Assembly: GCA_017561145.1 (NCBI GenBank)
Contig: JAFZDO010000011.1
Span: forward strand, 1 to 43,942
Length of the DNA stretch: 43,942 nucleotides
Direction: 5' to 3'
From: Clostridia bacterium
GTDB taxonomy: Bacteria > Bacillota > Clostridia > Oscillospirales > CAG-382
Shown here: in pieces, positions 19,425-42,501 of the stretch
Position numbering within the stretch: the first letter of the stretch is position 1
Layout: each line of letters starts with the position of its first letter
Notes under the pieces: generated by a model
What the model was told of the DNA's origin: nothing
The model's input: only the letters and a program-made list of their open reading frames with translations
The model's database searches: none
Made by a program: the position numbers and the translations under genes

Positions 19425-19453
19425 TTGAAATTAGTTGTAAGATGATGTATAAT
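19425..19453 (+). promoter_or_regulatory. Promoter of the acyl-CoA synthetase gene
   Basis: TTGAAA (19425-19430), a 17-base spacer, TATAAT (19448-19453). The -10 overlaps upstream in-frame ATGs, which excludes them as starts. Confidence 0.8.
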
Positions 19454-19483
19454 AGCCTCATTCGATCTATAAGGGGTATTTCA

Positions 19484-27141: not shown

Positions 27142-28125
27142 ATGAAAACACCTATCAGCTGGATCATCGACGACCCCGCTCCTATAATTTCGGTCTATCA
27201 CGAGCATTCCCGTAAAGGTCAAACCGCAGACGGACGTCCGCTCATCCCCACCTACCCCAACGAATCGCTCTATACCTTCTGCGATATTATCGAAAGAAAC
27301 GGCATCCGCGGTAAATTCAGCGTGGTTCCCATGCCCGGCAACAAGGGCGATATCGTAAACGGTCTCGACGGCGTTGCCAAAGAAGATCTCGACGCTTGGC
27401 TCGAATGCGTTAAGACACGCGTTATGCCTGCGTTTTCGGTCGGACCCGAAATGCTTACCCACCACAAGGCAGTCGATTTGGAAACGGGAAACGCACTTTC
27501 GATGAACGAGCGCGATTGGGCATCCACCCAGGACCGCAAAACGCTTGTGCCCTATATCGAAAAAGCCGTTAAGCTTGTTAACGATGCAGGACTTTATTCT
27601 ATCGGTGTTACCTCCCCTTGGGACTTCGGTATCGAGGTCGAGGACGAATACGAGCATTCCATCTCGCTTGCGGTAGAAAAGGCAACCGGCAGTAAAAAGG
27701 CTTGGTTCTTCCTTCGCGGACTGCGTGACCGCCCGAAGGCAAAGCCGTGGGTCGCACGTGAGGAGGACGGCAGAACGCTGGTTTCCATCCCCGCTACAAC
27801 GCGCGATTATATCTGGCAAACCATCGACACGACACGCTCGGATGACGATTACGTAAACGAGATCGCTGATAACCTTATTACCGCAGACGGCAAGGAGGGC
27901 CATATCCTCCGTGTGCTCGAGGCAGAGGGTTATCCGATACTTATCACCCACTGGCAAAGCTTGATGTCAAACGGTCTTTACACGGGACTTCGCGTTATGG
28001 ACGAGGTCGGCAGAAGAATCAAAGAGCACCTCTCTGACCGCGTCGAATGGATGAGCTTCGAGCAGATACTCGATCTTGTTCTTTCAAACAAAGAAGATTA
28101 CCCGAAGCCGATATTCAATGACTAA
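27142..28125 (+). CDS. Polysaccharide-deacetylase-like beta/alpha-barrel protein
   Basis: This 327-residue cytoplasmic protein without a signal peptide has features of the glycoside hydrolase/deacetylase barrel superfamily. Near the start is an Asp pair, WIIDDPAP (like motif 1 of CE4 enzymes); then come GIRGKFSVVPMPG, EMLTHHKAVD (a possible metal-binding His-rich motif 2), GVTSPWDFG and, late, PILITHWQSL. It lacks a classical TFDDGP motif and I know no characterised member, so activity is uncertain. RBS GGAGG lies 7 bases before the ATG. It converges on the GH172 gene at the end of the lipid operon and shares its terminator. Confidence 0.65.
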   Translation: MKTPISWIIDDPAPIISVYHEHSRKGQTADGRPLIPTYPNESLYTFCDIIERNGIRGKFSVVPMPGNKGDIVNGLDGVAKEDLDAWLECVKTRVMPAFSVGPEMLTHHKAVDLETGNALSMNERDWASTQDRKTLVPYIEKAVKLVNDAGLYSIGVTSPWDFGIEVEDEYEHSISLAVEKATGSKKAWFFLRGLRDRPKAKPWVAREEDGRTLVSIPATTRDYIWQTIDTTRSDDDYVNEIADNLITADGKEGHILRVLEAEGYPILITHWQSLMSNGLYTGLRVMDEVGRRIKEHLSDRVEWMSFEQILDLVLSNKEDYPKPIFND

Positions 28126-28130
28126 AACAA

Positions 28131-28160
28131 AAAGAACCGCTGATTAAGCGGTTCTTTTTT
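28131..28160. terminator. Bidirectional terminator ending the acyl-lipid operon
   Basis: AAAGAACCGCT (28131-28141) pairs with AGCGGTTCTTT (28147-28157), with T tracts on both strands. It is the first convincing terminator downstream of the minus-strand operon that starts at 37.2 kb. Confidence 0.9.
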
Positions 28161-28163
28161 ACG

Positions 28164-29216
28164 TTAAATTATTTCCAATTCGTTCACCGAAGGAAATTCG
28201 GGATAAACGTCGTTCAAATTATCGGAATACCAATAAGCTACCGATGAGATATCGTCCTGCAAGGGCAGATAGCGGTTTCCGCTTCTCCAGCCGAGCGCTT
28301 GGACGGTGACCTTAAGATCCTTCTCGAAATAAATCGGGTCGGTGATATGCCAACGGTAGAGATTGAAATATCTTTGCGAGCGATACAGACCGTCGGTAGT
28401 GCTTATCTTATGCATACCTGCATAAGGCGTGCAGAATTCTTGATATTTTCCGTTAACGTCGAAATTATAAGCGCCGCAAAAATAATCCTCGGTGCCTGTG
28501 CCGCAGATAGTGGGATAGTCGGTATCGCCGTCGATATAGAACTTGACCTCTCCCTCGCCCCACCAGCCGTTGCTTTTGACGCCCCAATTCAAATAGGTGC
28601 CGACGTAATGTCCCTTGCCCTTGATATTGTCAAGAATAACGTAGGGCTCCATATACGGCAGAGGGTTCACACGGCGGAACTGCGCGTGGAAATACAAGGT
28701 GTCGGGAGATAATTCCCTCTCCTCGCAATCGATCTGGTAATAAATATTACATTCGTGTCCAAGGTTTTCGACCTCAACGCGAAAGCTCTTGAAAAAGGGC
28801 ATTTCAAAATAGCAGTTAAGCCCCTTTGCAGGGTTTACGCACATTGCAAGGCTTGAAAGCTGACGAAATTCTTTATAATCGGCGTTGCAGAAGAAATCCG
28901 AAAGAGGACATTCGATATTCGGCTTTTCCTGACCGTCGAAATATATTCTTAAAATAAGCTGACGGCTTGCAAAAGCGCAATCGGTCATCCAGATATGCTT
29001 TATCGCACCCTGGCCCTTATAATCGGCAAGAGTGATCTTACTGTGCGCTTCTATCCTTAAATAGGGGTTTACCTTCCAGCCCACGCCAAGCTCGCGCGAT
29101 GCCTCCGAGGCACTGCCGACAACGTCTCTTCCTCCGCAGCCCTTTTCACCCGTTAAATTCTCGGGCGAGATAGAAAAGGATTTTATATTCTTTTTCGTGG
29201 TCAGATTGTTAAGCAT
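28164..29216 (-). CDS. GH172 (DUF2961) glycosidase
   Basis: This 350-residue protein matches DUF2961, now glycoside hydrolase family GH172, whose studied members are alpha-D-fructofuranosidases or difructose-anhydride synthases and D-arabinofuranosidases. Family signatures are the GIKHIWMTD-like segment (KHIWMTDCAF), WWGEGEVKFYIDGD and GTGTEDYFCGAYNF. Two glutamates in the last two motifs are the expected catalytic pair. No signal peptide is seen, so it is cytoplasmic. It begins 20 bases after the LRAT/PPTase gene with its own RBS (GGAGCG) and no terminator between, so it looks like the last gene of the lipid operon. A sugar-containing product or precursor would explain this. Confidence 0.85.
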   Translation of the reverse strand: MLNNLTTKKNIKSFSISPENLTGEKGCGGRDVVGSASEASRELGVGWKVNPYLRIEAHSKITLADYKGQGAIKHIWMTDCAFASRQLILRIYFDGQEKPNIECPLSDFFCNADYKEFRQLSSLAMCVNPAKGLNCYFEMPFFKSFRVEVENLGHECNIYYQIDCEERELSPDTLYFHAQFRRVNPLPYMEPYVILDNIKGKGHYVGTYLNWGVKSNGWWGEGEVKFYIDGDTDYPTICGTGTEDYFCGAYNFDVNGKYQEFCTPYAGMHKISTTDGLYRSQRYFNLYRWHITDPIYFEKDLKVTVQALGWRSGNRYLPLQDDISSVAYWYSDNLNDVYPEFPSVNELEII

Positions 29217-29236
29217 ATCAAACGCTCCGTTTTTAT

Positions 29237-30238
29237 TTAAATAATAACGTTTTCAAAAAATCTGATTTTTTCGGGGGTTTCGGTTGCGACCGAAACGGTA
29301 TATTCCCTGCCGTCCACCGATTTGATAAAGCTTTTATAACCGCCGTTTTCGGTATCGATAGCATAAGGGTTGAACGCACCCTTGTGCGACGCCTTGAAAA
29401 GCGCCTCCTTTGCGGTCCATACCCTAACGAAAAAGTCCTGCTTTTCGCTTTTATCAAGCTTTTCAAATACAGAATATTCACTGTCGTTCATAATACGCCT
29501 TGCAAGACCGTCGGAGCATTCGGTATCCATCGGCTCGATATCAACACCTATCGCATTGCGCGATACCGCAACACATAAAGCGCCCTTGCTGTGTGAAAAG
29601 GAAAATTCCGCACGGTCGGTCATATATCTTCCGTTTTCATCGCGGATAAATTTCAAATCCGCAGCCTTCAGTCCCAGACTGCGCTGCAAAGCATACTCAA
29701 AAAGCTTCCACACGTAATACTTTTCGCGTTTTACCTTTTCGTTGGTGACCGAATCGATCTCCTTTTGGCGCAGATCGCAGGAAAGCGCTTCGCCGATTTC
29801 GCCATCGGGAAGCTTTGCAAGATAAACGTCGGCAACGGGTAGACTTCTTATAAAATCACGCACACGGTCAGCCTGATTGCATACCGCCGTGCCCGAAACA
29901 CATTCATTGGCAAAATGCTCGCAATTGTAGTAAAGAACACTGTAGCCGCGCATACCCATTTTAGAACGCGCATATTCGACGATCTCATCGGGAGTGCGGT
30001 TCTTTTTTCTTTCTTTTCGGTCAAATTCGCAGGTTTCAAGAAAACCGCCAGCCAAAAAGCCGTCTATATCGGTTGCAAGTACCTCTACGTCGCTGTCCTT
30101 CAAAAGATTGCGGCGCGACGGCGCAAGACCGAACTGAATCACCTCTTCATCCGAAACGTAGATTCCGAAATGATAAATTCCGCCCAATTCAACGCGGATC
30201 ATATCCCCTCTGGAGGGATTTTTTATAAGCCATTTCAT
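29237..30238 (-). CDS. Fusion of an LRAT/NlpC-like domain with a 4'-phosphopantetheinyl transferase
   Basis: This protein has 333 residues. The N-terminal part (1-125) has the lecithin:retinol-acyltransferase/NlpC-P60-like signature: GDMIRVELGGIYHFGIYV with H23, and YYNCEHFANEC with C106 in NCEHF. LRAT-fold enzymes use these to move acyl groups from phospholipids or to cleave amides. The C-terminal part (about 140-333) is an Sfp-type PPTase: FSFSHS (212-217), GVDIEP (D233, E235) and WTAKEALFK (274-282). It would attach the phosphopantetheine arm to the operon's own carrier proteins. The start overlaps the ACP stop (ATGA), indicating coupling; an ATG at codon 13 with a better RBS exists but would cut into the LRAT motif. 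I know of no characterised protein with this fusion. Confidence 0.85.
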   Translation of the reverse strand: MKWLIKNPSRGDMIRVELGGIYHFGIYVSDEEVIQFGLAPSRRNLLKDSDVEVLATDIDGFLAGGFLETCEFDRKERKKNRTPDEIVEYARSKMGMRGYSVLYYNCEHFANECVSGTAVCNQADRVRDFIRSLPVADVYLAKLPDGEIGEALSCDLRQKEIDSVTNEKVKREKYYVWKLFEYALQRSLGLKAADLKFIRDENGRYMTDRAEFSFSHSKGALCVAVSRNAIGVDIEPMDTECSDGLARRIMNDSEYSVFEKLDKSEKQDFFVRVWTAKEALFKASHKGAFNPYAIDTENGGYKSFIKSVDGREYTVSVATETPEKIRFFENVII

Positions 30239-30489
30239 ATTTTCTTTTCTATGTAGTCGATAACGTCCTTTATGGTTTCGAAATCGGCAAAACCAACGTC
30301 GTCAAAGCGTATGCCGAAGAATTCCTCAATTGCAATAACAACGTACAAAATGCCGACCGAGGAGAGTCCGATATCGTTGACGAGATTCGAATCCTCGGTA
30401 ATTTCGGTTTCGGTAACGTCCAACGCGGGCATTACCATATTGATAACCTCGTTAAGCTTTTCGAAAATCTCACTTCTTGACATTGCCAT
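30235..30489 (-). CDS. Acyl carrier protein
   Basis: The 84-residue acidic helical protein has the carrier motif NDIGLSSVG, with S44 the predicted phosphopantetheine site (the common motif is DSL, here SSV). The helix after it, IEEFFGIRFDDVGFADFETI, is typical of ACPs. It differs from the housekeeping AcpP in the SSV motif. It overlaps both neighbours (20 bases upstream, 4 downstream), so it is tightly coupled. It most likely receives acyl groups from the adenylating enzyme just upstream and is activated by the fused PPTase just downstream. Confidence 0.92.
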   Translation of the reverse strand: MAMSRSEIFEKLNEVINMVMPALDVTETEITEDSNLVNDIGLSSVGILYVVIAIEEFFGIRFDDVGFADFETIKDVIDYIEKKI

Positions 30490-31981
30490 TTAAATTCCTC
30501 GCGATCTTCATTGCAGGGGTACGGATAAAATCGGTATCCCTGATGACAAGTTTGTTGATTCTTTCAAAGGTGGGAAGGGTTTTGTTCACCCGTTCGAATT
30601 CTGCCTTGATATGTGCGTTGATATCCTCGATGCCCAATTCCTTTACCTTTGTAAATCTCGGATATACCTCAAGCACAAGCTGATGCATACCGTTTTCGGT
30701 GGTGTCGTACACAAGGCAATCCTGAACGGTATCTATAGCGCAGAATTTAACCTCGAGTTCGGCAGGCGAAACCTTTTCGCCGCTCGAAAGAACGATAATG
30801 TCCTTGATCCTGCCGGTTATGTAAAGATATCCGTCTTCATCGATACGAACCAGATCGCCGGTCTTGAAATAGCCGTCTTCATACGCGATATCGTTTTCTT
30901 CATCGGAAACGTATCCCGACATCATATTTACGCCCTTCAGCCAAAGCTCGCCGTCGACTATTTTATATTCCATTCCGCCGTATATCAATCCGACCGATTC
31001 GGGCTTTTTCAACGGCTCGATATTGCCGCTTACAAGGTTTGCCGATTCGGTAAGGCCGTAACCGGGAAGAAGCGCAATGCCGCGCTTCGCATATTCGGTA
31101 ATAAGATACTGCGCGACGGGTGCGGCACCGCAAATGATGGTTTTAAGATCGGGTCCCCACATATTTCTGCCGAACTGCACAGAAAGTGTAAGCGCCATTT
31201 CAGCCAACGCGGGAACAAGCACCATAATAGTCGGCTTAAAAATCGCAACGTCGCGGAACATATCCTTGTTGTTTCTGCAGATGAACAGGGTACTGCCGGT
31301 ATAAAGGCTCGTCATAAGGTTTCTTATAAGTCCGAAAACGTGAGTCAACGGTAAAACGAGAAGATAGCGTTGACCGAAAATTTCGCGAACGCCGTAGCAG
31401 CCGTTTTTCGTGCCCGCCATAAGCGCACGCTGACTAATCTTTGCTCCCTTGCTCTTGCCGGTCGTACCGCCGGTAAAGAGCACTGCTGCCGTTGCTTCGG
31501 CAGGTACGGGGATCATAGCGGTTTTTTCGGAAGCGGTTGCCGACGAGGGGATCAATGCAACCGAAGGATTTTTTTCTCTGAGAAGAGCAACCCTGTCCTC
31601 CAACGATTCATCATAAACGACCGCCTTCATTCCGAATTTGGTTGCAACACCGAAAACGGTGTTCACGTCCATATGTGCAGGAAGCAAAACTGCTGCAACG
31701 CCAAGCGTCGTTGCGGCAAGAAACGCCTTTACGAATCCATAGGAATTAGGGCAAAGTATGCCGATAAGCGAGCCTGTGCCCGCATTATTTTCCTTAAGCA
31801 CGGTTCTGAAACGGGATACGTCCTCATCCAATTGTGCGTACGTATAATTTTCGCCGTCTACAATAGCGATATCGTTCGCATATTCCGAAATACAGCGTGT
31901 CCACATTTCGGTAACGTTTTGAAAATCTACGATTCTTTCAAAGGTTTCGGGTGTGGTGTATTTTCTGAATTTTTCGTTCAT
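30470..31981 (-). CDS. Class I adenylate-forming enzyme (acyl-ACP/acyl-CoA ligase)
   Basis: This 503-residue ANL-family protein has the AMP-binding VLFTGGTTGKSKGAKIS, PGYGLTESANL, YFKTGDLVRIDEDGYLYITG with GRIKDIIV, and near the end the catalytic lysine region TPAMKIARN. It should activate a carboxylic acid and load it on the ACP encoded right after it, although CoA as acceptor is possible. The ATG at 31981 shares one base with the preceding stop (TGATG) and follows AGGGGAG by 8 bases; a GTG one codon earlier is less well placed. The acid it uses cannot be read from sequence. Confidence 0.9.
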   Translation of the reverse strand: MNEKFRKYTTPETFERIVDFQNVTEMWTRCISEYANDIAIVDGENYTYAQLDEDVSRFRTVLKENNAGTGSLIGILCPNSYGFVKAFLAATTLGVAAVLLPAHMDVNTVFGVATKFGMKAVVYDESLEDRVALLREKNPSVALIPSSATASEKTAMIPVPAEATAAVLFTGGTTGKSKGAKISQRALMAGTKNGCYGVREIFGQRYLLVLPLTHVFGLIRNLMTSLYTGSTLFICRNNKDMFRDVAIFKPTIMVLVPALAEMALTLSVQFGRNMWGPDLKTIICGAAPVAQYLITEYAKRGIALLPGYGLTESANLVSGNIEPLKKPESVGLIYGGMEYKIVDGELWLKGVNMMSGYVSDEENDIAYEDGYFKTGDLVRIDEDGYLYITGRIKDIIVLSSGEKVSPAELEVKFCAIDTVQDCLVYDTTENGMHQLVLEVYPRFTKVKELGIEDINAHIKAEFERVNKTLPTFERINKLVIRDTDFIRTPAMKIARNLNGNVKK

Positions 31982-32676
31982 CACTCGTTCTCCCCTTTTT
32001 TGCTCTTATTTTTCGGATAGTTATTGTCGAGATATTTGCGAAGCTCGATCTCCTTTTCCCTCAGATACTCGGTCGTTTCGTTCACCGCCTGCATAGAGGG
32101 GATCCTGCCGAGCCTTTCGGAAATATCTATCGGCGCGCCCATAACGATGCGCTGTCTGTGATACCATTTCTTTCTTTTGGAAAGATATATCGGGAGCACC
32201 TTTGCGCCGCCTCTGTGTGCCATAAGCACAACGCCCGATTTAAAATCGAGCACCGAGCCGTTTTCCTCCCTCTCGTTTATCTTTCCTTCGGGGAAAATGC
32301 CGATTATCCTGCCCTGCTTAAGACGGTCGGTAACCTCGTGGAAGGAAGAAATATTGAAATTTTCCCTGTCAACCTCAACGCAATGCATTCGGGTGAAGAA
32401 AAATCTTGTTATTTTCGTAGCGAAAAGCTGCTTTGTTGCAAGGATATTTACGCGGTGCTTAGGGAATGACAAAAGCACCGAAACGGGGTCCATCGCGCCG
32501 TAATGGTTTGCGGCAACGAGAAGCGGACCGTCCTTGCACGGCTTGCCGAAGGGATAATAATACTTAGGACGAAGCCACAACCATGCGGGCAAAGCACCCG
32601 TAACCTTTACAAAATCGTAAACAAGATTGTCAAAGGGCTTTTTCTTTTGTTTTTTCGATTTGTTGTCCGAGTTCAA
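31981..32676 (-). CDS. PlsC-type acyltransferase (first of two)
   Basis: This 231-residue protein of the 1-acylglycerol-3-phosphate acyltransferase family has AANHYGAMD (H58-x4-D63, the catalytic motif) and GIFPEGKI (128-133, acceptor phosphate-binding motif). The N-terminus is basic (SKKQKKK), suiting membrane association. The start is TTG at 32676, with GAGGAG 8 bases upstream; it overlaps the previous PlsC gene by 47 bases. It transfers an acyl group from an acyl-ACP or acyl-CoA to a hydroxyl. With a second PlsC copy beside it, stepwise double acylation of one head group is a natural reading. Confidence 0.9.
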   Translation of the reverse strand: MNSDNKSKKQKKKPFDNLVYDFVKVTGALPAWLWLRPKYYYPFGKPCKDGPLLVAANHYGAMDPVSVLLSFPKHRVNILATKQLFATKITRFFFTRMHCVEVDRENFNISSFHEVTDRLKQGRIIGIFPEGKINEREENGSVLDFKSGVVLMAHRGGAKVLPIYLSKRKKWYHRQRIVMGAPIDISERLGRIPSMQAVNETTEYLREKEIELRKYLDNNYPKNKSKKGENE

Positions 32677-33277
32677 TAATCTTACTCCTCACATAGTCGT
32701 TGATTATACGGATGTTTTCTCTTTCCGATAAAGCTTCGTCATAGAGCGAAGAAACGTCGATCGGCTTGCCGATAACAACACGTCTGCGCCCGCCGCACAT
32801 CATCTTGCCGTTGTTATATACCGGAATAACAGGCGCACCCGATTCCAGAGCAAGAAGAACATAGCTCGGCTTGAATGCGATCGGCTTTTCTTCTCCCTTG
32901 TTCGGTATCCTCGCTTCGGGATATATCTCAACAACGCCGCCGTTATGTAATATCTTCTTCATTTTGTCGAGGAAGACCATATCATAGCTGTCGCGGTCGA
33001 CCCTGACACAACCGAACGGCTTTAAGATAAGCTTAAGGAATATATTTTTATCAAGGGTTATCTCCGCAACGGCACACCGCAGAGTGCGACTCCAGAAAAC
33101 AAACAAAAGCACGGCAAAATCCATCAACCCGTTATGGTTGGACGCCACTATTGCCTTTGAGCGGATAAAACGCCCCTGAACCGACTTATCCTCGTAATGC
33201 ACCTTGGTGCGGAAAAGGATAAGCTGAGGTATGTAGCCTGTGATTCTTACGAACCAATGATAGATCGCATAAAGCAT
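32630..33277 (-). CDS. PlsC-type acyltransferase (second of two)
   Basis: This 215-residue paralogue of the neighbouring acyltransferase has SNHNGLMD (H48-x4-D53). Its second motif reads EIYPEAR (119-123) in place of the usual FPEGT/R, with Ala replacing Gly, which hints at a different acceptor. A hydrophobic N-terminal stretch (WFVRITGYIPQLILF) may dip into the membrane. It starts 3 bases after the transporter stop, with a distant GAGG RBS, so translation is probably coupled. The two PlsC genes diverge clearly and are not a recent duplication. Confidence 0.9.
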   Translation of the reverse strand: MLYAIYHWFVRITGYIPQLILFRTKVHYEDKSVQGRFIRSKAIVASNHNGLMDFAVLLFVFWSRTLRCAVAEITLDKNIFLKLILKPFGCVRVDRDSYDMVFLDKMKKILHNGGVVEIYPEARIPNKGEEKPIAFKPSYVLLALESGAPVIPVYNNGKMMCGGRRRVVIGKPIDVSSLYDEALSERENIRIINDYVRSKIIELGQQIEKTKEKAL

Positions 33278-33280
33278 TAA

Positions 33281-35182
33281 TTACTTGTCCTCGTGTGCAA
33301 ATATCTTGTTCATTCCGCGCTGCAGGATGATAAGAGCGGGAACGTTTACGAACAGAACGGGGAAAATACAGCAGAAAATTATCAAAGGAAGCTTGCTCAT
33401 CTTAAAGGCAATGCCTCTTTCATCTGCGATACGCATCATCGTCTTGCGCATTTTAAGAACGCAGATAATATGCGCGTAAGGGATAAAGCAGGATGCGAGA
33501 TAGGTGATAACGCTCGGGAATTTCTTTGCGAAGCCCTTGATAGATCTTACGAGAATACCGAGCCAGATAAATCCGAATATAAATCCCGAAAGAACGGTAA
33601 GACCGACCTGAACGAAAATAATCTCGGAGCGTTCTCTTTTTTCCTCGGAGTTTTCAAACGCGCTTATATCAAGAGAGGGGTCCATTTCCTTGAATTCTCT
33701 TGCGAGGATCGCGGGAGTAAAGTCACGCGGCATCTTAAACGCAATGACAAAGCCGATAACCATGGCGATCACCACGATAAAGGGAACCAGCAAATTGCCG
33801 AGGTTGAATATCGAATCCGCAACGGCATCTTCGCTTCCCAAAGCGCCGAAAAGCTCGCGGTATGCTACCTCGGAAGCAGAAAGATCGCCCTCTGCCTCTG
33901 CCCAGACAATGCCCTTGCCGCTTGCGAAGAAGAGGTTCTTTATGTACTCGTAAACGAGAGAGCCCGAAATCGCGCCAGCGATCGAGGTCGCAACGGCGTT
34001 GCCTGCAAAATACATTGCCGAATGGTTTCTGCCGGTAAGCTTTTCTTCAACACTCGATATCTGTGCAGGTGCAAGATAAGGAAGCATAAAGAACGCGCCG
34101 ATAGACCAGCTTCCCAAAAGACCGCCAACGATACCGATTGCCATTTTGGCGGTAAGGTTATCGTTGCCGAGAACGAAGCGCGAACCGATAAAGAAGTTGA
34201 GCATCGCAATACCGAAAACGAGCAGACAGCTTTGGTATATCTTTCTTACACCGAATCTCGCCTTTGCTTTGTTGAAAAGATAAAGCATAATAGGCACGGG
34301 TGCAAACGCACAGGTGTTGAATATCGCCATCTGGAAGCCGTTCAAGCCCATTCCGCCGATAATAAGTCCGTTCATCGATGCCAAAAACATCTGAAGACCG
34401 AAATATGCGCAGGTGTTGACAAGCAGCCAACGTCTGAAAATTCTGTTTTTAAAGGTCAAAGCAATGCTTTGACGAAGCGTTGCCTTTTCCTCAAGCATAC
34501 CCTCGTTTTCGGGGTATCCGTATTTTTCGCCCTCCTTGATAAGAAAGAGAGGGATAAGCATTGTGACCATCATGGGAACACAAACGAATGCAAGCGTATC
34601 GATATGCATCTCGAATGCGGAAAGGATAACGGGAACGAGCGCATATACCAAGCAATAGGAAATGGTATCGAAAAACGCCTTATAGCCCGAAACTCTCAAG
34701 CGCTGAGGCTCGTCGGTGCAAACCGTCGAAAACGAGCCGTAGAACGCGATAAGACACATTGTGTAAGCCGCGAAAAAAACAAGGCTGAAAACGGTGATCC
34801 ATATCGTGTTCAAAAGCTTGCCGTCGGCACCGCCGATCGGGATCCAACACATAATATAGCTTATAAGCATGGGAAGGAAGCAGACCGCTATCGCAGGGCG
34901 GCGTCTTCCCCATTTTGTAGAAAGCGTATCGGCGATATGAGCAAAGGGAATATCGATTATTCCGTCAAACACCTTGCCGAGCGCAAAAAGTATCGGAAAA
35001 ACCGCAGGAAGGATAAAGCAAACACCCGGCACGATCGCCTGAAACTGCTCGCCCATTTCAAGCGAAGCAGGGTTAAGCGCATCCGAAAAATACGAGCCCA
35101 TAAGAATCATCAGAAGATTCGGCCCGAATCCCGAAAACGCGAACAAAAACTCTTTCCATTTTGTGTTAAGCGATTTAACCAT
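33281..35182 (-). CDS. GPH-type MFS transporter with extended C-terminus
   Basis: This 633-residue membrane protein belongs to the glycoside-pentoside-hexuronide/MelB branch of the major facilitator superfamily: GKVFDGIIDIPFAHIAD and TKWGRRRPAIAVC follow the MelB-like DPxxG and RxGRRR motifs. Twelve spans cover about residues 1-480. After a hydrophilic segment (about 490-540) a further two to four spans follow, making it 130-180 residues longer than typical members. In this operon it could export or flip the product, or import its sugar or head group. RBS GGAGG lies 6 bases before the ATG, 21 bases after the ligase-carrier gene. Confidence 0.85.
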   Translation of the reverse strand: MVKSLNTKWKEFLFAFSGFGPNLLMILMGSYFSDALNPASLEMGEQFQAIVPGVCFILPAVFPILFALGKVFDGIIDIPFAHIADTLSTKWGRRRPAIAVCFLPMLISYIMCWIPIGGADGKLLNTIWITVFSLVFFAAYTMCLIAFYGSFSTVCTDEPQRLRVSGYKAFFDTISYCLVYALVPVILSAFEMHIDTLAFVCVPMMVTMLIPLFLIKEGEKYGYPENEGMLEEKATLRQSIALTFKNRIFRRWLLVNTCAYFGLQMFLASMNGLIIGGMGLNGFQMAIFNTCAFAPVPIMLYLFNKAKARFGVRKIYQSCLLVFGIAMLNFFIGSRFVLGNDNLTAKMAIGIVGGLLGSWSIGAFFMLPYLAPAQISSVEEKLTGRNHSAMYFAGNAVATSIAGAISGSLVYEYIKNLFFASGKGIVWAEAEGDLSASEVAYRELFGALGSEDAVADSIFNLGNLLVPFIVVIAMVIGFVIAFKMPRDFTPAILAREFKEMDPSLDISAFENSEEKRERSEIIFVQVGLTVLSGFIFGFIWLGILVRSIKGFAKKFPSVITYLASCFIPYAHIICVLKMRKTMMRIADERGIAFKMSKLPLIIFCCIFPVLFVNVPALIILQRGMNKIFAHEDK

Positions 35183-35203
35183 AACGGTCCTCCCGTTTTA
35201 AAA

Positions 35204-37129
35204 TCATTGTTTTTTCTGTATGTATGACGCAAACTCGCCTACCGTAGAAATATGCTCGTTGCCGCCGTCAAAAATTTCAATTCCGAACCTTTCCCTTATC
35301 CTGCCGAGCAGAATATGGTAATCTATGCTCGTTCCGCCGAGATCCTGAAAAAATCGGCTGTTTTTCCCGATATCGCCCGGATCCTTACCGAGCACCTCGG
35401 CAAAGCAATCGCGCAGCTCTCTTTCAAGGCCCAACAAAAGCTCCTCCGAATGTGCGTGAACCGAATTCGGATCGAAGGTAGAAAGCGTTCCCTCGGCGAT
35501 ACGAAGCGCAAGTCCCTTGCGCGATATCTTGATCTCGCCCGATGCAAGAAGACTGTCGTTCGTGAAGTAGATCCTGCTCACCGTTCTGTCAAGCTTTGCC
35601 GATGCGAGCGCTCTTTGAAGAGCTTTATTGATCGAAGTCAGTCTTTCCACGGCATAACAGCCGGGCACCGACACGATGACCGCCACGCTTCCGTCGACAT
35701 CTGTAAATATGCAAGCACGGTCTACGTGTTCGACCGTAAGCGCCTTTTCGACAAGCTGAGGCGCGATATTTTCGCCGTTTTCGCATATTATCATATCGTC
35801 AACGCGCCCGCTTGCATAATATCTTCCGTTTTCGAAGCGCATCATATCTCCGGTAGAAAACCATTCGTCCTCATACGAGCCGACCGTTTCCCCATCGACA
35901 AGTATGCGCGTTGCGCGCGTTTTGCCGCCGATCAACAATATGCCGTTTTCGTCGATGCGATGCTTCGTATATCCGAACGGAGCGCCGATAGCGCCCGAAT
36001 TAAGTATCCTTTTGCTTTTCGACCTTTCGACCGAAACGATTCCTATCTCCGTCATGCCGTAGCCGTTTGCAAGATGATAGCCTATTCCGTTGAAGAAGCT
36101 CAACGTCGAAGTGCTTATTTCACTTCCGCCGCTGATCATAAACATAATGCTGTCGCCGAACAGACCGTCGCGCACCTCGGAAAGCAAACGCTTTGCAATA
36201 ATATCGCCCAATCTGCCGTTTGAATTGACAAGCTTGCTGATGCTTACAAAGCGATTATAGGTTTTAATGCCGCGCGCCTTGATCTTGTTGGTTGCCGCCT
36301 TGGCAACCGCATCCCACACCATCGGAACTGCAAAAATATGCGTTACCTCGTGCTTTTTGACGGTGCGCTGAATCGTTGTAGGATTCAAATCTCTTGGAAA
36401 AACGAAGGTTCTCGAGAAAAATCCGAACCACAAATAAACCGCGATAAACCCAAAAACGTGACAAAGCGGCAAAAGGACAAGCTGCTTCAATTCACCCTTG
36501 TAATGCCGTCTTATATCGGGACAGGTAGAAATGATATTCGCACTGTCGCATATCTGATAATAAAAATTCTCTCCCGTATATTCGCAAAGCTTGACCTTGC
36601 CCGAGGTTCCCGAAGACATAAAATATATTCCGTTTCCGAATTCTTCAATGCAAGCATCCTCTTCCGAAGGTGCGATCGCATCCTCCTTCAAAACGGTTTT
36701 TACTTCAAAAACGTTCCCGTCGGAAATAACTCCCTTAACACCGTATTGCTTTAAGAGCCCGTTTAAAACGTCATTGGAAAGACGGGTGTTCATTAAAAGC
36801 GGCTTATAGCCCGCGGCAAGGATCGCCCAGAAGCAAACAAGCCATTCGGGACAGTTGGACATATAAAGTCCGATAATTTCACCCGCAGGCAGATCGGCAA
36901 AAGCCTTTTTTACCGAGCCGACGGCTTTGAGTATTTTATTTTTAAACTCACCGTAGGTCACCTTATGAATACGGTAACCGTCGGTAGTTTCAACCATCAC
37001 GTTATCACGCTCGTCAAACATCAATTCGAAAAGCGTGCCTAAGGTCTTTTCCCTCTTCGAATAAACGTCGAGCTTGTATTTAACGTAATCGTCTATATTG
37101 TCAAAACCGCGTACGTTGCGAAGCTTCAT
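35204..37129 (-). CDS. Adenylating enzyme fused to a C-terminal carrier domain
   Basis: This protein has 641 residues. Residues 1-540 are an ANL domain: FMSSGTSGKVKLCEYTG (P-loop), NGYGMTEIG, WFSTGDMMRFENGRYYASGR with the hinge GRVDDMII, and SGEIKISRKG with the catalytic lysine. Residues about 560-641 are a carrier domain with FFQDLGGTSIDYHIL, where S601 is the phosphopantetheine site. The GGTS form is closer to nonribosomal-peptide carriers than to AcpP. It activates an acid or amino acid and loads it on itself. It is the first gene of the operon, with RBS AAGGA 8 bases before the ATG. The enzyme has no condensation or ketosynthase domain, so downstream acyltransferases must use its thioester. 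Confidence 0.9.
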   Translation of the reverse strand: MKLRNVRGFDNIDDYVKYKLDVYSKREKTLGTLFELMFDERDNVMVETTDGYRIHKVTYGEFKNKILKAVGSVKKAFADLPAGEIIGLYMSNCPEWLVCFWAILAAGYKPLLMNTRLSNDVLNGLLKQYGVKGVISDGNVFEVKTVLKEDAIAPSEEDACIEEFGNGIYFMSSGTSGKVKLCEYTGENFYYQICDSANIISTCPDIRRHYKGELKQLVLLPLCHVFGFIAVYLWFGFFSRTFVFPRDLNPTTIQRTVKKHEVTHIFAVPMVWDAVAKAATNKIKARGIKTYNRFVSISKLVNSNGRLGDIIAKRLLSEVRDGLFGDSIMFMISGGSEISTSTLSFFNGIGYHLANGYGMTEIGIVSVERSKSKRILNSGAIGAPFGYTKHRIDENGILLIGGKTRATRILVDGETVGSYEDEWFSTGDMMRFENGRYYASGRVDDMIICENGENIAPQLVEKALTVEHVDRACIFTDVDGSVAVIVSVPGCYAVERLTSINKALQRALASAKLDRTVSRIYFTNDSLLASGEIKISRKGLALRIAEGTLSTFDPNSVHAHSEELLLGLERELRDCFAEVLGKDPGDIGKNSRFFQDLGGTSIDYHILLGRIRERFGIEIFDGGNEHISTVGEFASYIQKKQ

Positions 37130-37146
37130 AATCGAAATCCTTTTTA

Positions 37147-37172
37147 ACCGTTTCGCACGTGGCGCAAACGGT
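37147..37172 (-). promoter_or_regulatory. Inverted repeat in the 5' leader of the acyl-lipid operon
   Basis: ACCGTTT (37147-37153) and AAACGGT (37166-37172) form perfect 7-base arms, extended by a 3-bp inner stem around CACGTG. It lies between the promoter and start codon, so it may be an operator or an RNA hairpin. Confidence 0.5.
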
Positions 37173-37189
37173 CGAATTTTGTCAAAATA

Positions 37190-37217
37190 AGTATAACATA
37201 AAACCGCCGATTTTCAA
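37190..37217 (-). promoter_or_regulatory. Promoter of the acyl-lipid operon
   Basis: Minus strand: TTGAAA (37212-37217), a 16-base spacer ending in TATGT, TATACT (37190-37195). No other good promoter is seen within the following eight genes. Confidence 0.7.
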
Positions 37218-37332
37218 TACATATTATGAATTTTCTTTCTATAAATATATGAATTTTCCGTTTTCTTCCTGCACTTTTCTCTCCCCGAATAACCGTTTTT
37301 CACCCTTTTTTTCAGATTGCTAAAGCTTAAAT

Positions 37333-37362
37333 AAAAAAGCACCTTAAAACCGGTGCTTTTTT
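37333..37362 (-). terminator. Terminator of the VUT/SDR operon
   Basis: GC-rich stem AAAAGCACC/GGTGCTTTT (within 37333-37343 and 37352-37362) is followed by a T tract on the minus strand. It separates this operon from the acyl-lipid operon on the same strand. Confidence 0.88.
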
Positions 37363-37371
37363 ATTTCCTGT

Positions 37372-38025
37372 TTATTCCTTCCAGATGAAGTTGTAGTTTA
37401 TCGATTCTCCGCCGTCGACCAGAATGCTTTGACCGGTGCAGAAGGTGTTTGTTACCGTAAGGAAATACGCCCATTCGGCAATCTCCTCGGCAGTCGCCCA
37501 CCTTTTAAGCGGCGTTTCGTTCATTATCGCTTCCCAAAGAACGGGATCGTTGATAACGCAATCGTTAAGAGGGGTTTTAACTCCTCCCGGATCAAGGCTG
37601 TTGCAGGTGGCGTTAAAGGGTGCGACACGCATTGCGACGTTCTTGGTATAAGCCAAAATTCCCGCCTTGCTCGCGCAGTATTCGGGAAATTCCGCGCCCG
37701 TATGCGCGCTTGCCGAGCCGATATTAAGTATCGAGCGGATATCCTTTTGTATACCGTATTTTTCGGTGATATGGATAAGCGCCTTTAAATTAACGTCAAT
37801 ATCCTGCTCGTTCTGCGTGCCTGCGTTGTTAACGAGCACGTTAATACCCGATAGCTCGGGAAGATGAGCGTAATCACGCACGTCGCATTGATAATGCGTG
37901 TAATTTTCGTCTGTGATGCTCTTATCCTGCCTGTCAATGCCTATGACCGTGTGATTTTCCTTAAGAAACCTTTCGGCGATCGCCTTGCCGATGCCCTGCG
38001 ACGTTCCCGTTATTAAAACCTTCAT
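37372..38025 (-). CDS. Short-chain dehydrogenase/reductase
   Basis: This 217-residue classical SDR has the NAD(P)-binding TGTSQGIG (residues 6-13), NNAG (66-69), and the catalytic Y116-x3-K120 in EYCASKAG with an upstream serine at 104-106. It ends in the usual GQSILVDGGE. IGIDRQD after strand 2 suggests NAD(H) preference because of the acidic residue. Its start overlaps the VUT transporter stop by four bases, so it falls under the preQ1 riboswitch. No SDR is established in queuosine metabolism to my knowledge. It could act on a queuine-related compound or just be co-transcribed. Confidence 0.9.
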   Translation of the reverse strand: MKVLITGTSQGIGKAIAERFLKENHTVIGIDRQDKSITDENYTHYQCDVRDYAHLPELSGINVLVNNAGTQNEQDIDVNLKALIHITEKYGIQKDIRSILNIGSASAHTGAEFPEYCASKAGILAYTKNVAMRVAPFNATCNSLDPGGVKTPLNDCVINDPVLWEAIMNETPLKRWATAEEIAEWAYFLTVTNTFCTGQSILVDGGESINYNFIWKE

Positions 38026-38768
38026 TTTTTGCCTCCGTCAACAAATTCAAGATATTGCTCTCCGACGCTTTGCCTTTTCCACTTTTTGACAACTCTGTAA
38101 CCGATCGGCGAGAAAATCACTTCCATAATAAGCTCCGCGACCGCTCCCGTAAGCGCACACGTCGTGCATTGCAATAAAGTCCAGCAAAAGCCGTCCCAAT
38201 ATATCGGTGCAAACACCGTAAAAACGATGACCGAGAATATAAGATTGTCGATAAACTGACCTACAAACGTTGAAACGTAGCACTGTGTGACGTACGCCAA
38301 TTTGCCGTCGGGATTTTTCGAAAACGCCTTGCCGATAAGCCAATTCAGAAAATTGTTTATCAGCGCGGATATCAAAAAGGCAATAGTACTGCCAAGCAGG
38401 ATAAACCAAGTGCCGCCCAAAATTCCGTTAAGCGCGGTATAATCGTTCGCATTCGAGGGGATAGCGCTTGCGATATAAAACAGCAAGCAGGTAAGCAAAT
38501 TTATGCCCGAAGCAAGTATCGCCACCTTGTTCGATGCCTTGGGGCCGAAATATTTCGTAATAATATCCATACACATAAAGGATAGCCAGGATATCAAAAC
38601 CCCTCCGTCGAGTGCGATAATTTCGGTCTGCACAAGCGTCTTATTAGCCAAAAGGTTCATACATATAACGCTTACGACAAACAACGACACGACCGTCGAG
38701 GGAATACTTCTGAGAAGGAGTGAGGTTTCTTCCCTCTCTCTTTTTATCCAATTTGAAATCGTTTTCAT
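38022..38768 (-). CDS. VUT-family (YhhQ-type) queuosine precursor transporter
   Basis: This 248-residue membrane protein with about six spans matches the VUT/COG1738 family of queuine or preQ transporters: LDGGVLISWLSFMCMDIITKYFG after span 2, GGTWFILLGSTIAFLISALI, and YVSTFVGQFIDNLIFSVIVF near the end. The preQ1 riboswitch directly upstream strongly supports uptake of a queuosine precursor. I chose the ATG at 38768 because AGGTGA precedes it; an earlier in-frame start would lie in the riboswitch terminator hairpin. It is co-transcribed with the SDR gene. Confidence 0.9.
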   Translation of the reverse strand: MKTISNWIKREREETSLLLRSIPSTVVSLFVVSVICMNLLANKTLVQTEIIALDGGVLISWLSFMCMDIITKYFGPKASNKVAILASGINLLTCLLFYIASAIPSNANDYTALNGILGGTWFILLGSTIAFLISALINNFLNWLIGKAFSKNPDGKLAYVTQCYVSTFVGQFIDNLIFSVIVFTVFAPIYWDGFCWTLLQCTTCALTGAVAELIMEVIFSPIGYRVVKKWKRQSVGEQYLEFVDGGKK

Positions 38769-38778
38769 TTTATCACCT

Positions 38779-38813
38779 AAAAAGAAAGCGGCATTGCAAA
38801 ACGCAAAGCCGCC
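38779..38813 (-). terminator. Regulatory terminator of the preQ1 riboswitch
   Basis: On the minus strand GCGGC and TTGC pair with GCAA and GCCGC (38788-38812, one internal mismatch), followed by TTTCTTTTT. It lies between the aptamer and the RBS of the transporter gene, as expected for a transcription-terminating switch. Confidence 0.8.
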
Positions 38814-38839
38814 AATCAACAAATATTTATGATAAGCAG

Positions 38840-38882
38840 TCCTGGTTTTGTTTAATGACAGGATGGTACAAGCGAACTGTCA
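38840..38882 (-). promoter_or_regulatory. preQ1 class I riboswitch aptamer
   Basis: On the minus strand, stem P1 is TGACAG/CTGTCA and its loop begins TTCG. Loop CTTG can pair with CAGG in the 3' tail to make the pseudoknot. An A-rich tail, ATTAAACAAAACC, follows P1 and closely resembles that of the Thermoanaerobacter tengcongensis switch. A cytosine just before the 3' P1 strand fits the preQ1-contacting base. The 15-base loop is slightly longer than in classic examples. Genomic position, in front of a queuosine-precursor transporter, is as expected. Confidence 0.78.
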
Positions 38883-38890
38883 GCAAAGTA

Positions 38891-38918
38891 ATTATAACAC
38901 ATTACAGCAAAAAAGCAA
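38891..38918 (-). promoter_or_regulatory. Promoter of the riboswitch-VUT-SDR operon
   Basis: Minus strand: TTGCTT (38913-38918), a 16-base spacer ending in TGTGT, TATAAT (38891-38896). The aptamer begins about 10 bases after the -10 box. Confidence 0.7.
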
Positions 38919-39427: not shown

Positions 39428-39456
39428 TTGAAAAAGTCAAAAATATGTGATATACT
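39428..39456 (+). promoter_or_regulatory. Promoter of the glycyl radical enzyme operon
   Basis: TTGAAA (39428-39433), a 17-base spacer ending in TGTGA, TATACT (39451-39456). Confidence 0.8.
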
Positions 39457-39497
39457 GCACTCAGAAAATATCACGAACATGCAATCAGGGTAGATTT

Positions 39498-41615
39498 ATG
39501 GAATTCTATACTCAAAACGGAATGAAAAGGCCAATACGCCTGTCAGAATCGACGCGCAAATTCGCACGCGATTCCTTGGCGCGCAAATACGGACTCGACA
39601 CAATGAAGGTCGATTCGGTTTCGGTTGACGATATCGAAAATTTCGGTAATATGTCGGAGCTTGCCCGTTATGACGCGGCAATAAAAAGGATAGCCGCCGA
39701 ATCGCCGTTGCGCATCTGCCCCGACGAAAAAATAAGCGGTGCCGCAACCCTCGGCATGGCGATAAGGCACTATATTCCCGCAACCTATAGCGGAAAATCG
39801 GTATCCTACGGCATGAGCCACCTTACCGCCGATTTTGAAACGGTGGTAAAATACGGTGTAAATTCCATCAAAGCAAAGGCTTTAAAGGCTTATTCTGAAT
39901 ACAAGGGCACCGAAAGCGAGGAGTTCATAAAAAGCTGTCTTAATTGCATAGAAGCATTTGAAATATGGCATAGCCGCTATCTTGACGCATTGAGCAATAT
40001 GCCCGAATATAAGGCAAATTACGAAAACCTCAAGCGCGTACCGTTCGAGCCTGCAACAAGCTTTTACGAAGCGGTTCAAAGTATTTGGTTTGCTTTTGCC
40101 TTTATGCGGCTTTGCGGAAACTGGCCTGGTATAGGAAGAATAGACCACCTTCTCGGCGATTATTTAAAAAAGGATTTAAAAAACGGCTCGATAACGCTTG
40201 ACGAAGCACGCGAAATACTTGCCCACTTCTTTATAAAGGGCTGTGAATGGGTAAACGGTCAGTATATCGGAAGCGGCGATGCACAGCATTATCAAAATAT
40301 TTTGCTCGGCGGTATCGACGAAGACGGGAAGGAAATAACCAACGAGGTATCCTATCTCGTTTTGGATATATTGGAGGAGCTTGGTATAAGCGATTTTCCC
40401 ACTACGGTTCGCGTTAACAAAAGCACTGACGGTAAATTCCTGCGCCGTGTGGCAGAGGTGATGCGGTACGGAGGCGGAACGCTTGCCGTTTATAACGAGG
40501 ACTTGGTTATCAAAGCTCTTGTTAACGACGGATATCCCGAGCGAGAGGCACGTAAATTTGCCAACGACGGCTGTTGGGAGGTTCAGATACCGGGCAAGAC
40601 CTATTTCACATATATACCGTTCGATTCCTTGCAGATACTTCAAAAAAGCACTCTTAACGGATATGAGCAAGGCGTTGCCTTTGACAGCTTCGAGGAGCTG
40701 TATAACGCGTTTGTTTCCGACCTTTACAAGAAGGTCGAGGAAATATATATCGATAAGATCAGCTCGCTTACCGATACTACCTCGCTTAGGCACTGTTGGG
40801 AATGGCCCTGCACCGTTATTTCTCTTTTCGAGCAGGGCTGTATCGAAAAGGGCGCGTCATATGTCGACGGCGGCCCGATTTATAATATAATCTCGCCCCA
40901 CATCGGCGGTCTTGCCGATACCGTCAATTCGCTTTATGCCATAAAAAAGCTCGTATATGACGACAAAAGGGTTACTCTTTCCGATCTGCTTAATATTCTG
41001 CATAACGATTGGAATGGCGAGGAGGCATTGCGCCAATACGCTCTTAACCGATACGTATATTACGGAAACGATAACGACGAGGTGGACGAATTAGCCGCAA
41101 GGCTGCTTTCGGATTTTGCCGATATCTGCACATCTTTTAACGGAAAATGCGGCTACCGCTTCCCTGCGGGAGTAAGCACCTTCGGCCGTCAGCTCGAATG
41201 GGCACATATGCGTCTTGCCGTTCCTTACGGCAGAAAAGCAGGCGTGGTCTTGGCGGCAAACTGCTCGCCTACCCCCAACACCGACAAAGAAGGCGCTACC
41301 GCAATAATCCGCTCCTACTGCAAGGCAGACCTTTCAAAGCTCGCCACGGGCGCGGCGCTGGATATTAAGCTTTTGCCCTCAAGCGTAGAGGGTGAAAACG
41401 GCTTGCAGGCATTAATTTCCTTGCTCCGCGGCTTTGTGTCGCTCGGCGGCTTCTTTATGCAGCCCGACGTGGTGGACGCCTCGGTGCTTAAGCAGGCGCA
41501 GGAAAATCCGGAAGACTACCAAACGCTGTCGGTGCGCGTTTCGGGCTGGAACGCCCGTTTCGTCACGCTCGATAAGGAATGGCAGGACATGGTGATAGAG
41601 CAAAATGAGCATTAA
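39498..41615 (+). CDS. Glycyl radical enzyme of the pyruvate formate-lyase superfamily, unknown substrate
   Basis: This 705-residue glycyl radical enzyme carries the radical site RVSGW with G683 (22 residues from the C-terminus), followed by NARFVTLDKEWQDM. The thiyl-radical cysteine is C359 in ANDGCWEVQIPG. Most dehydratase/lyase members (choline, glycerol, propanediol, hydroxyproline, isethionate) have GCVE at this place. The Trp here and the absence of the following Pro point to another subfamily. The protein is shorter than the usual 780-850 residues and has no encapsulation peptide. I chose the ATG at 39498 (RBS CAGGG); an earlier in-frame start lies within the promoter. It overlaps its activase gene by 11 bases. 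Confidence 0.9.
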   Translation: MEFYTQNGMKRPIRLSESTRKFARDSLARKYGLDTMKVDSVSVDDIENFGNMSELARYDAAIKRIAAESPLRICPDEKISGAATLGMAIRHYIPATYSGKSVSYGMSHLTADFETVVKYGVNSIKAKALKAYSEYKGTESEEFIKSCLNCIEAFEIWHSRYLDALSNMPEYKANYENLKRVPFEPATSFYEAVQSIWFAFAFMRLCGNWPGIGRIDHLLGDYLKKDLKNGSITLDEAREILAHFFIKGCEWVNGQYIGSGDAQHYQNILLGGIDEDGKEITNEVSYLVLDILEELGISDFPTTVRVNKSTDGKFLRRVAEVMRYGGGTLAVYNEDLVIKALVNDGYPEREARKFANDGCWEVQIPGKTYFTYIPFDSLQILQKSTLNGYEQGVAFDSFEELYNAFVSDLYKKVEEIYIDKISSLTDTTSLRHCWEWPCTVISLFEQGCIEKGASYVDGGPIYNIISPHIGGLADTVNSLYAIKKLVYDDKRVTLSDLLNILHNDWNGEEALRQYALNRYVYYGNDNDEVDELAARLLSDFADICTSFNGKCGYRFPAGVSTFGRQLEWAHMRLAVPYGRKAGVVLAANCSPTPNTDKEGATAIIRSYCKADLSKLATGAALDIKLLPSSVEGENGLQALISLLRGFVSLGGFFMQPDVVDASVLKQAQENPEDYQTLSVRVSGWNARFVTLDKEWQDMVIEQNEH

Positions 41616-42501
41616 AACAAAACTGACGGTATCTGAAATACAGCGCTTTTGTATGCACGACGGCCCGGGCATCCGCACAACGGTTTTTTTAAAGGGCTGT
41701 CCCTTGCATTGTGAGTGGTGTCATAATCCCGAAACACAAAAATTCAGCCCCGAGCTTCTTTATTACGGCAACAGGTGCATCGGTTGCTTTTCCTGCGCTG
41801 ACGTGTGTCCGAACGGAGTACACGGCGGCGAAAACGAGCATATAATCGACCGAAGTAATTGCACCGCCTGCGCTTTATGCGCCAACGACTGCCCAAGCAC
41901 TGCTTTAGAGATTTGCGGCAAGGAAATGACGTTTGCCGATATACTGTCGGTCGCGGAAAAGGATAAAGCCTTTTACGGCGAAACGGGAGGCATCACGCTT
42001 TCGGGCGGCGAGCCGTTTGCCCAAAACGAGGCGACGGTAGAATTTTTAAAGGCTTGCAGAACGCAACGTATTTCCACGGCGGTCGAGACCTGCGGCTATT
42101 GCGATACCGATATCTTGCTTTCGGCAATCCCCTTTGTCGACCTGTTTTTATGGGATATCAAGGACACAAACCAAGCGCGGCACAAGAAGTACACCGGCGC
42201 TTCAAACGAACTGATACTTAAAAACCTGAACGCCGCAAACGAAAAGAACGCAAGGATACGCCTGCGCTGTATTCTTGTCAACGGCGTGAATACCGACGAA
42301 GAGCATTATAAAAGCATCGCAAGGCTCGCATCGGGGATAAATAATTTTGACGGAATCGATATCCTTCCCTACCACGCCTACGGCGGAAGCAAGGCTTTGC
42401 TTTTGGGTCTTCGGGATAACGGCAAAAAGGAATGGATCCCCGATCAGACCCAAATCGACCGTTTAAATAGCATACTGCGCGATCACGGCATTATCGTGTA
42501 A
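41605..42501 (+). CDS. Glycyl radical enzyme activating protein (radical SAM)
   Basis: This 298-residue radical-SAM activase has the SAM cluster GCPLHCEWC (C32, C36, C39) and then an inserted ferredoxin domain with two further 4Fe-4S sites (C58, C61, C64, C68 and C86, C89, C92, C96). This is the layout of activases for non-PFL glycyl radical enzymes. GGITLSGGEPFAQ and the later ILPYHAYGGSK are typical. It installs the radical on G683 of the upstream enzyme; the 11-base overlap supports a dedicated pair. The pair requires strict anaerobiosis. Confidence 0.95.
   Translation: MSIKTKLTVSEIQRFCMHDGPGIRTTVFLKGCPLHCEWCHNPETQKFSPELLYYGNRCIGCFSCADVCPNGVHGGENEHIIDRSNCTACALCANDCPSTALEICGKEMTFADILSVAEKDKAFYGETGGITLSGGEPFAQNEATVEFLKACRTQRISTAVETCGYCDTDILLSAIPFVDLFLWDIKDTNQARHKKYTGASNELILKNLNAANEKNARIRLRCILVNGVNTDEEHYKSIARLASGINNFDGIDILPYHAYGGSKALLLGLRDNGKKEWIPDQTQIDRLNSILRDHGIIV

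Follow-up and report, generated by a model that had tools for sequence, protein, structure and literature searches.

How does a bacterium that seems to make no fatty acids itself acquire the acyl chains of its membranes? The question is raised by an operon of Clostridia bacterium (GenBank assembly GCA_017561145.1), which is probably gut-dwelling. The window, by which we mean the whole stretch of DNA analysed, spans 43,942 nucleotides and is the entire contig JAFZDO010000011.1 (G000:C14) of the bacterium's own genome, G000, an assembly of 1.55 Mb that is 68% complete. On its minus strand, seven tightly packed genes (29237-37129) encode an acyl ligase with a fused C-terminal acyl carrier (ligACP), an MFS_2 transporter (GPH), two PlsC acyltransferases (PlsC1 and PlsC2), a second acyl ligase (lig2), a stand-alone acyl carrier protein (ACP), and an LRAT domain fused to an Sfp-type phosphopantetheinyl transferase (LRAT-PPTase). 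An earlier note on this DNA had predicted that the operon attaches existing acyl chains to a head group, which is likely right by family and context, and had inferred that the product, a diacylated lipid, N-acyl amide, or acylated glycoside, is exported. This last step we do not retain, because the linkage of related loci to fatty-acid kinase (Fak) genes, the lack of matches to the two ketosynthase models tested, and a cation-symporter site in GPH point to lipid import and to the acylation of membrane phospholipids. On balance, we favour the interpretation that the operon serves an acyl-ACP-based route that salvages outside fatty acids and lysolipids and reacylates them for membranes, and not the making of an exported natural product. 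We are less confident of lysolipid as the imported substrate, and of the exact role of the LRAT domain, than of salvage overall.

If this reading holds, it would explain how uncultured Clostridia of gut and rumen that lack ketosynthases could assemble their membranes from the lipid of their host, its diet, or their neighbours, and it implies a testable growth requirement, for fatty acids or lysolipids, that matters for culturing such Clostridia. The bacterial LRAT domain would, in that case, take part in ordinary phospholipid metabolism in association with PlsC and ACP.

Gene content of the operon

Pfam confirmed the families given in the earlier note to eight minus-strand genes, namely the seven above and a neighbouring GH172 gene. 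From the first gene to the last, these are ligACP (35204..37129; 641 amino acids [aa]; AMP-binding, E 2.6e-33, and PP-binding, 3e-10), GPH (33281..35182; 633 aa; MFS_2, 9.8e-35), PlsC1 (32630..33277; 215 aa; PlsC, 5.3e-17), PlsC2 (31981..32676; PlsC, 3e-20; 231 aa when counted from the first TTG, the real start being maybe downstream), lig2, a proposed acyl-ACP synthetase (30470..31984; 504 aa; 1e-54), ACP (30235..30489; 84 aa; 6.5e-9), and LRAT-PPTase (29237..30238; 333 aa; 3.3e-18 for the LRAT domain, a permuted NlpC/P60 domain of the PLAAT-like kind, and 3.2e-14 for the PPTase). The spacing between consecutive genes is +21, +3, -47, -4, -20, and -4 nt, which bears out the overlaps and short gaps described before (-47 to +21 nt). 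Neither Pfam nor NCBIfam detected a ketosynthase, condensation, or reductase domain in the eight proteins, in agreement with the earlier note; an SDR gene (37372-38025) lies upstream of the operon and outside it. FakA and FakB are likewise not among the operon proteins (Pfam). No operon protein reached an NCBIfam cut-off (for both ligases, among the best 25 models listed), so none is assigned an exact function, and the functions discussed below rest on domains, neighbours, and motifs.

The proposal of a single unit stood in part. Conservation supports it for seven genes and not for GH172 (DUF2961; 28164..29216, minus strand; Pfam, 7.1e-89), which follows LRAT-PPTase at +20 nt: in the related locus L032, a xanthine/uracil permease (PF00860) intervenes, and no GH172 match was found at locus L033. 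The conserved unit is therefore the seven genes at 29237-37129, and the GH172 neighbour is probably no functional part of it. The boundaries proposed for the unit are plausible, not proven. A promoter-like TTGAAA-16-TATACT with a TG before the second hexamer (37190..37217, minus strand; 10 of 12 positions matching) and a terminator-like hairpin of 13 pairs found by a hairpin scan between convergent genes (28129..28159, minus strand) rank first among the minus-strand sites of their respective kinds within 28000-38900. Sites of these kinds are only slightly more numerous on this strand than in shuffled sequences (promoter-like, 18 vs 15.1, standard deviation 4.1; terminator-like, 20 vs 14.4, standard deviation 4.0), i.e., their counts are near chance. 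An antiphage role was also considered and rejected: LRAT-PPTase, ligACP, and GPH, the three proteins tested, had no PADLOC-DB match at E ≤ 0.001.

Conservation of the operon and layouts in relatives

Relatives of LRAT-PPTase were sought by a scan of named genomes (three loci) and in 245 genomes of the order. In the same order sample, ligACP was matched in 18 genomes at E ≤ 1e-25. We refer to 12 of them as linked carriers, after leaving out six (G076, G130, G016, G057, G119, and G200) in which the matching gene lies apart from other operon genes or has a different domain layout. The searches for ligACP, lig2, and FadD-like ligases scored the five or six first-look candidates in genomes that hold more.

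The order ligACP-GPH-PlsC1-PlsC2-lig2-ACP-LRAT/PPT, which we call type A, is kept in four genomes: that of the window, those of L032 (a metagenome-assembled genome from buffalo caecum) and L033, and G208. Identity to the window proteins is 89-96% in L032, 51-78% in L033, and 36-52% in G208 (L043). A PF12146 hydrolase directly follows LRAT/PPT in L033. Counting the genome of L034, where the last four genes are found, there are five type A carriers (G000, G208, G245, G246, and G247). The second ligase is rare: G000 and G208 are the two genomes of the 245 in which it is matched at E ≤ 1e-60.

Other relatives have simpler layouts. Type B, found in five genomes from two genera of the window's family (G166, G143, G103, G197, and G060), reads ligACP-PlsC1-PlsC2-ACP-LRAT; GPH, lig2, and PPTase are missing from the locus, and its neighbours are FakA, two DegV/FakB genes, a second PlsX, and a hydrolase (PF12146, from the scan of the L037 copy). 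The ligACP of G197 is truncated at a contig end, and the ACP of G166 (L005), masked in the gene listing by an antisense open reading frame (ORF), was found by tblastn. Type C, in three genomes of one genus (G137, G230, and G171), has FakA-GPH-ligACP-PlsC1-hydrolase in a row, plus DegV genes; the G230 contig ends inside FakA, which is visible there as a domain fragment. In G126, ligACP is cut at a contig end, and PlsC, ACP, PlsX, DegV, and FakA lie on the same 15.5 kb contig. G112 holds ligACP, a double PlsC, and LRAT. Finally, G200 encodes PlsC1 and LRAT fused in one ORF of 325 aa (L042:331-1308), adjoined by a hydrolase (alpha/beta) and DegV. Seen against these layouts, the window operon may be two joined modules, GPH-ligACP-PlsC1 and PlsC2-lig2-ACP-LRAT/PPT, each of which would bring together a PlsC, a ligase, and a carrier in the manner of a split Aas.

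Linkage to fatty-acid kinase genes

Ten of the 12 linked carriers own FakA, and in nine of these the distance between FakA and ligACP is no more than about 10 kb, where 0.25 would be expected under random placement; G112 is the only owner without a nearby FakA. The nine linkages come from four genera and are therefore not nine independent events; a rough bound at genus level is 3e-6. FakA has no match in 5 of 20 genomes (G000, G245, G208, G155, and G225), and DegV has none in 9 of 26, these five included. In G019, of the same genus as the window, FakA-PlsX-DegV-unknown-ACP stand in a row (L077:6722-11649), and the 404 aa ORF before ACP had no NCBIfam match at E ≤ 0.001.

Fatty-acid synthesis in the carrier genomes

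The ketosynthase family PF00109 was not matched in any of the five type A and five type B carriers, nor in G137, G230, G171, and G126, and it was detected in all 14 controls; it is present in 7 of the 26 genomes searched. FabH was missing from all 14 genomes of type A, type B, type C, and G126 (10 of 14 controls positive); over all 20 genomes searched it was missing from 18, the two positives being G112 and G200. In the order sample, PF00109 is missing from 15 of the 18 genomes with a ligACP match, vs 91 of the 227 without (Fisher p 4e-4), and from 11 of the 12 linked carriers, vs 95 of the 233 others (Fisher p 5.5e-4), p values that overstate the association because the genomes are related by kinship and not independent. 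It is also absent from four of the six ligACP genomes left out of the linked set.

Here, a negative genome is one that is not among the 139 of 245 positives, a few of which are weak (e.g., G071, G167, and G224). Of the 184 genomes with a completeness of 90% or more and a contamination of 5% or less, 66 are among the 106 negatives. The acquisition of acyl chains is thus a broad question, and many members of the order may have lost de novo fatty-acid synthesis.

The genes that would use activated acyl chains are kept. PlsX was found in each of the 26 genomes searched for it, a set without type C and G126, and PlsY in 20 of 20. G000, G245, and G208, the last of which is 97% complete, retain both, with no match to PF00109, FabH, FakA, or DegV, so that their acyl-ACP would come from the ligases. 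The PlsX pathway is described as starting from acyl-ACP when FakAB supplies no acyl phosphate (PMC10146087).

The transporter

The best Pfam family of GPH is MFS_2, which is reported to include MelB and the lipid importer MFSD2A (PMC8437787). A profile of six GPH sequences was compared with three E. coli proteins and matched MelB at E 3e-7 and LplT at E 0.16. With residue roles as given for MelB in PMC8437787, the equivalents of the cation-site residues D55, D59, and T121 are kept in all six sequences. None of the six retains the sugar-site residues D124, W128, and R149, and the same holds for K18, D19, and W342 in a less secure part of the alignment. The window protein also has an extra C-terminal region that is absent from the type C relatives (443-446 aa). 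The retention of the cation site together with the loss of the sugar-site residues suggests that GPH works in the direction of uptake.

Ligases, carriers, acyltransferases, and the LRAT domain

The residues expected of active enzymes are conserved. The carrier serine S601 and K534 of ligACP are invariant in 12 aligned orthologs, H48-x4-D53 of PlsC1 in 10, and H58-x4-D63 of PlsC2 in 7, and the stand-alone ACP keeps its carrier serine in 10 of 10. The H-x4-D pair, the site of K534, and the carrier serine serve as the working motifs of their families. Lig2 aligns with residues 356-684 of E. coli Aas (28% identity, E 6e-28), and PlsC1 and PlsC2 are weakly similar to the N-terminal domain of Aas (E 8e-6 and 1e-6). 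In the LRAT domain, H23 and C106 are kept in all nine aligned rows, with the motif NCEHF in eight and NCRDF in G200, and phmmer matches the domain to HRAS-like suppressor 2 (E 9e-4). A second region of the genome (G000:C8:17300-17824) weakly matches the PPTase part (27%, E 1e-5). The genome may therefore hold another Sfp-type PPTase, in which case the fused one would be an extra copy.

Proposed mechanism

We propose the following scheme for salvage. GPH, as a cation-coupled MFS_2 symporter, would import a lysolipid or a related building block. Fatty acids would be loaded by ligACP onto its own fused carrier and by lig2 onto the stand-alone ACP, as gene order and the similarity to Aas suggest, after the fused PPTase has armed both carriers. 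PlsC1 and PlsC2, by the function of their family, would acylate the glycerophospho backbone, presumably at two positions. The LRAT domain may remove or swap phospholipid acyl chains like the mammalian PLAAT enzymes and, with PlsC, could form a cycle of deacylation and reacylation, a role that the PlsC-LRAT fusion supports. The acyl-ACP produced may also feed the PlsX and PlsY of the genome. More tentatively, and with odds that we put clearly below even, the operon might represent a third route by which Gram-positive bacteria use outside lipid, in which a private ACP, two split Aas-like units, LRAT as a phospholipase or transacylase, and a cation-driven lysolipid importer replace type II fatty-acid synthesis (FASII) and the fatty-acid kinase. 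PlsC1 with ligACP and PlsC2 with lig2 and ACP would then each serve one acyl position, and host or dietary phospholipid would be rebuilt.

Several observations weigh against salvage as described. Some concern the extent to which carriers depend on outside lipid. The FASII test consists of the PF00109 and FabH models, with FabD, FabZ, enoyl reductase, and Acc outside the search, and FabH alone is a weak sign, since it is absent from G187, which has PF00109, as well as from 4 of 14 controls. The window's genome is incomplete (68%), PF00109 is present in 3 of the 18 ligACP genomes (G112, G119, and G200), and G246 and G247 have FakA and DegV alongside type A genes. Furthermore, two genomes of the window's genus, G155 (97% complete) and G225 (95%), match none of PF00109, FabH, FakA, DegV, ligACP, and lig2, which means that the operon is not required for a state without ketosynthase and Fak. 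At least three FadD-like ligases were found in each of G155, G225, and G000 at E ≤ 1e-60. Other points concern the proteins. Among solved structures, those closest to lig2 are of feruloyl-CoA and fatty-acyl-CoA synthetases, and since these enzymes use coenzyme A (CoA), we infer rather than observe that lig2 loads ACP and not CoA. Residue 35 of the LRAT domain is Gln in eight of nine rows and Ala in L034, and the structure model of LRAT-PPTase is confident in the PPTase part only (residues 1-133 below 50), leaving the LRAT domain unresolved. In the GPH alignment, N58 of MelB is replaced by Ile and K377 by Ser or Gly, which makes sodium coupling doubtful; no chain in the PDB matched GPH, even at E 10, and its structure model is unusable (predicted local distance difference test, 33.5). 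Lastly, the L034 locus retains only PlsC2-lig2-ACP-LRAT/PPT, preceded by an HD-domain gene.

FadD-like ligases, which could activate fatty acids, are common: 67 of the order's 245 genomes have a match at E ≤ 1e-60. One lies in the window outside the operon (19442-21178, plus strand; 578 aa). We have therefore rejected the idea that the operon is the sole path of acyl activation; it is at most one of several routes. For G155 and G225, the FadD-like ligases are the only explanation we have for the source of acyl chains.

Alternative explanations

The ligases could serve activation only, feeding acyl-ACP to PlsX, PlsY, and PlsC, with GPH carrying a head group or something unrelated and no lysolipid being imported. 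The ubiquity of PlsX and PlsY in the genomes searched agrees with this, as does type B, which has ligACP, both PlsC, ACP, and LRAT yet no GPH at the locus. We nevertheless find it unlikely, given that plain activation needs no two extra PlsC genes and that GPH stands between ligACP and PlsC1 in four type A loci and between FakA and ligACP in three type C loci. The proposal of the earlier note, export via GPH of a specialised product (diacylated lipid, N-acyl amide, or acylated glycoside), is favoured by the likeness to a small assembly line of an operon with paired ligases, carriers, and acyltransferases and a private PPTase, and by the rarity of lig2, a frequent trait of specialised pathways. 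It must contend with relatives that adjoin FakA, FakB, and often PlsX, with a cation-symporter site that is kept in GPH, and with the lack of any conserved head-group enzyme in the loci seen, GH172 not being conserved; we therefore hold it to be decidedly unlikely.

Very improbable, in our judgement, is that the LRAT domain is an N-acyltransferase like LnsA of S. aureus, and that the operon serves the formation of lipoproteins or of N-acyl phosphatidylethanolamine. HRASLS enzymes are indeed reported to show N-acyltransferase activity (PMC7387801, PMC4624172). Against this, the operon contains no CAAX-family LnsB partner, and the LRAT-PlsC fusion in G200 favours O-acyl exchange on phospholipids. 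That general lipid genes have clustered by chance, without a joint role, would fit the fact that every single domain belongs to a common family, and is hardly credible: it is already contradicted by a gene order that four genomes share, even where identity falls to 36-52%, and the overlapping genes and fused domains speak against it too.

Comparison with known systems

If the salvage scheme is right, the operon would resemble E. coli LplT-Aas most in its working, without being a member of that system. LplT is described as flipping lysophospholipid inward, and Aas as making acyl-ACP and reacylating the lysophospholipid (PMC11416262). Both systems combine an MFS transporter, a PlsC-type acyltransferase, and an acyl-ACP synthetase with ACP. 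They differ in the transporter, which matches MelB weakly and LplT not, in the separation of PlsC and ligase into distinct genes where Aas is one polypeptide, and in the two ligases, two PlsC, private ACP and PPTase, and LRAT domain of the operon. The FakA/FakB-PlsX route channels outside fatty acid into phospholipid synthesis by PlsXYC, as outlined in PMC10146087. Genes of this route lie close to relatives of the operon, whereas type A itself uses acyl ligases and ACP with no kinase, and three of its five carriers have no FakA or DegV match.

The PLAAT/HRASLS enzymes are characterised by an NCEHF motif, an N-terminal His, and a second polar residue that is His or Asn (PMC4624172). The operon protein shares the LRAT Pfam domain, the Cys of NCEHF, and the His at position 23; it differs in being bacterial, in its fusion partner, which is PPTase in type A but PlsC in G200, and possibly in the second polar residue, where Gln (Ala in L034) is aligned, and its activity is a prediction only. 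With MelB and MFSD2A (MFS_2, GPH), the transporter shares the MFS_2 domain, and it keeps the Asp pair of helix II and the Thr of the MelB cation site; it differs from MelB in its sugar-site residues and its extra C-terminal region. In the S. aureus system, LnsA, a permuted NlpC/P60 protein, is reported to need LnsB for the N-acylation of lipoproteins (PMC7387801), and our search within the operon found no LnsB CAAX-like partner among its proteins. Another bacterial permuted NlpC/P60 protein is reported to cleave phospholipids (PMC12994826). Polyketide and nonribosomal peptide clusters are set apart by the ketosynthase and condensation domains that the operon proteins lack. Among the papers listed by literature searches on LRAT proteins, lysolipid transport, FakA/FakB, and fatty-acid auxotrophy, no title or abstract opening mentions such an operon.

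Other features of the window

Two further loci were noted in the window. On the minus strand, positions 9893-12493 encode a protein of 866 aa whose N-terminal 171 residues contain sigma-70 regions 2 and 4 and whose C-terminal part is long; it has no 19-residue stretch with a mean hydropathy above 1.8. On the plus strand, positions 39447-42501 encode a glycyl radical enzyme together with its activase. Against the PFL2-3 model, whose cut-off is 678 bits, the enzyme scores 337.

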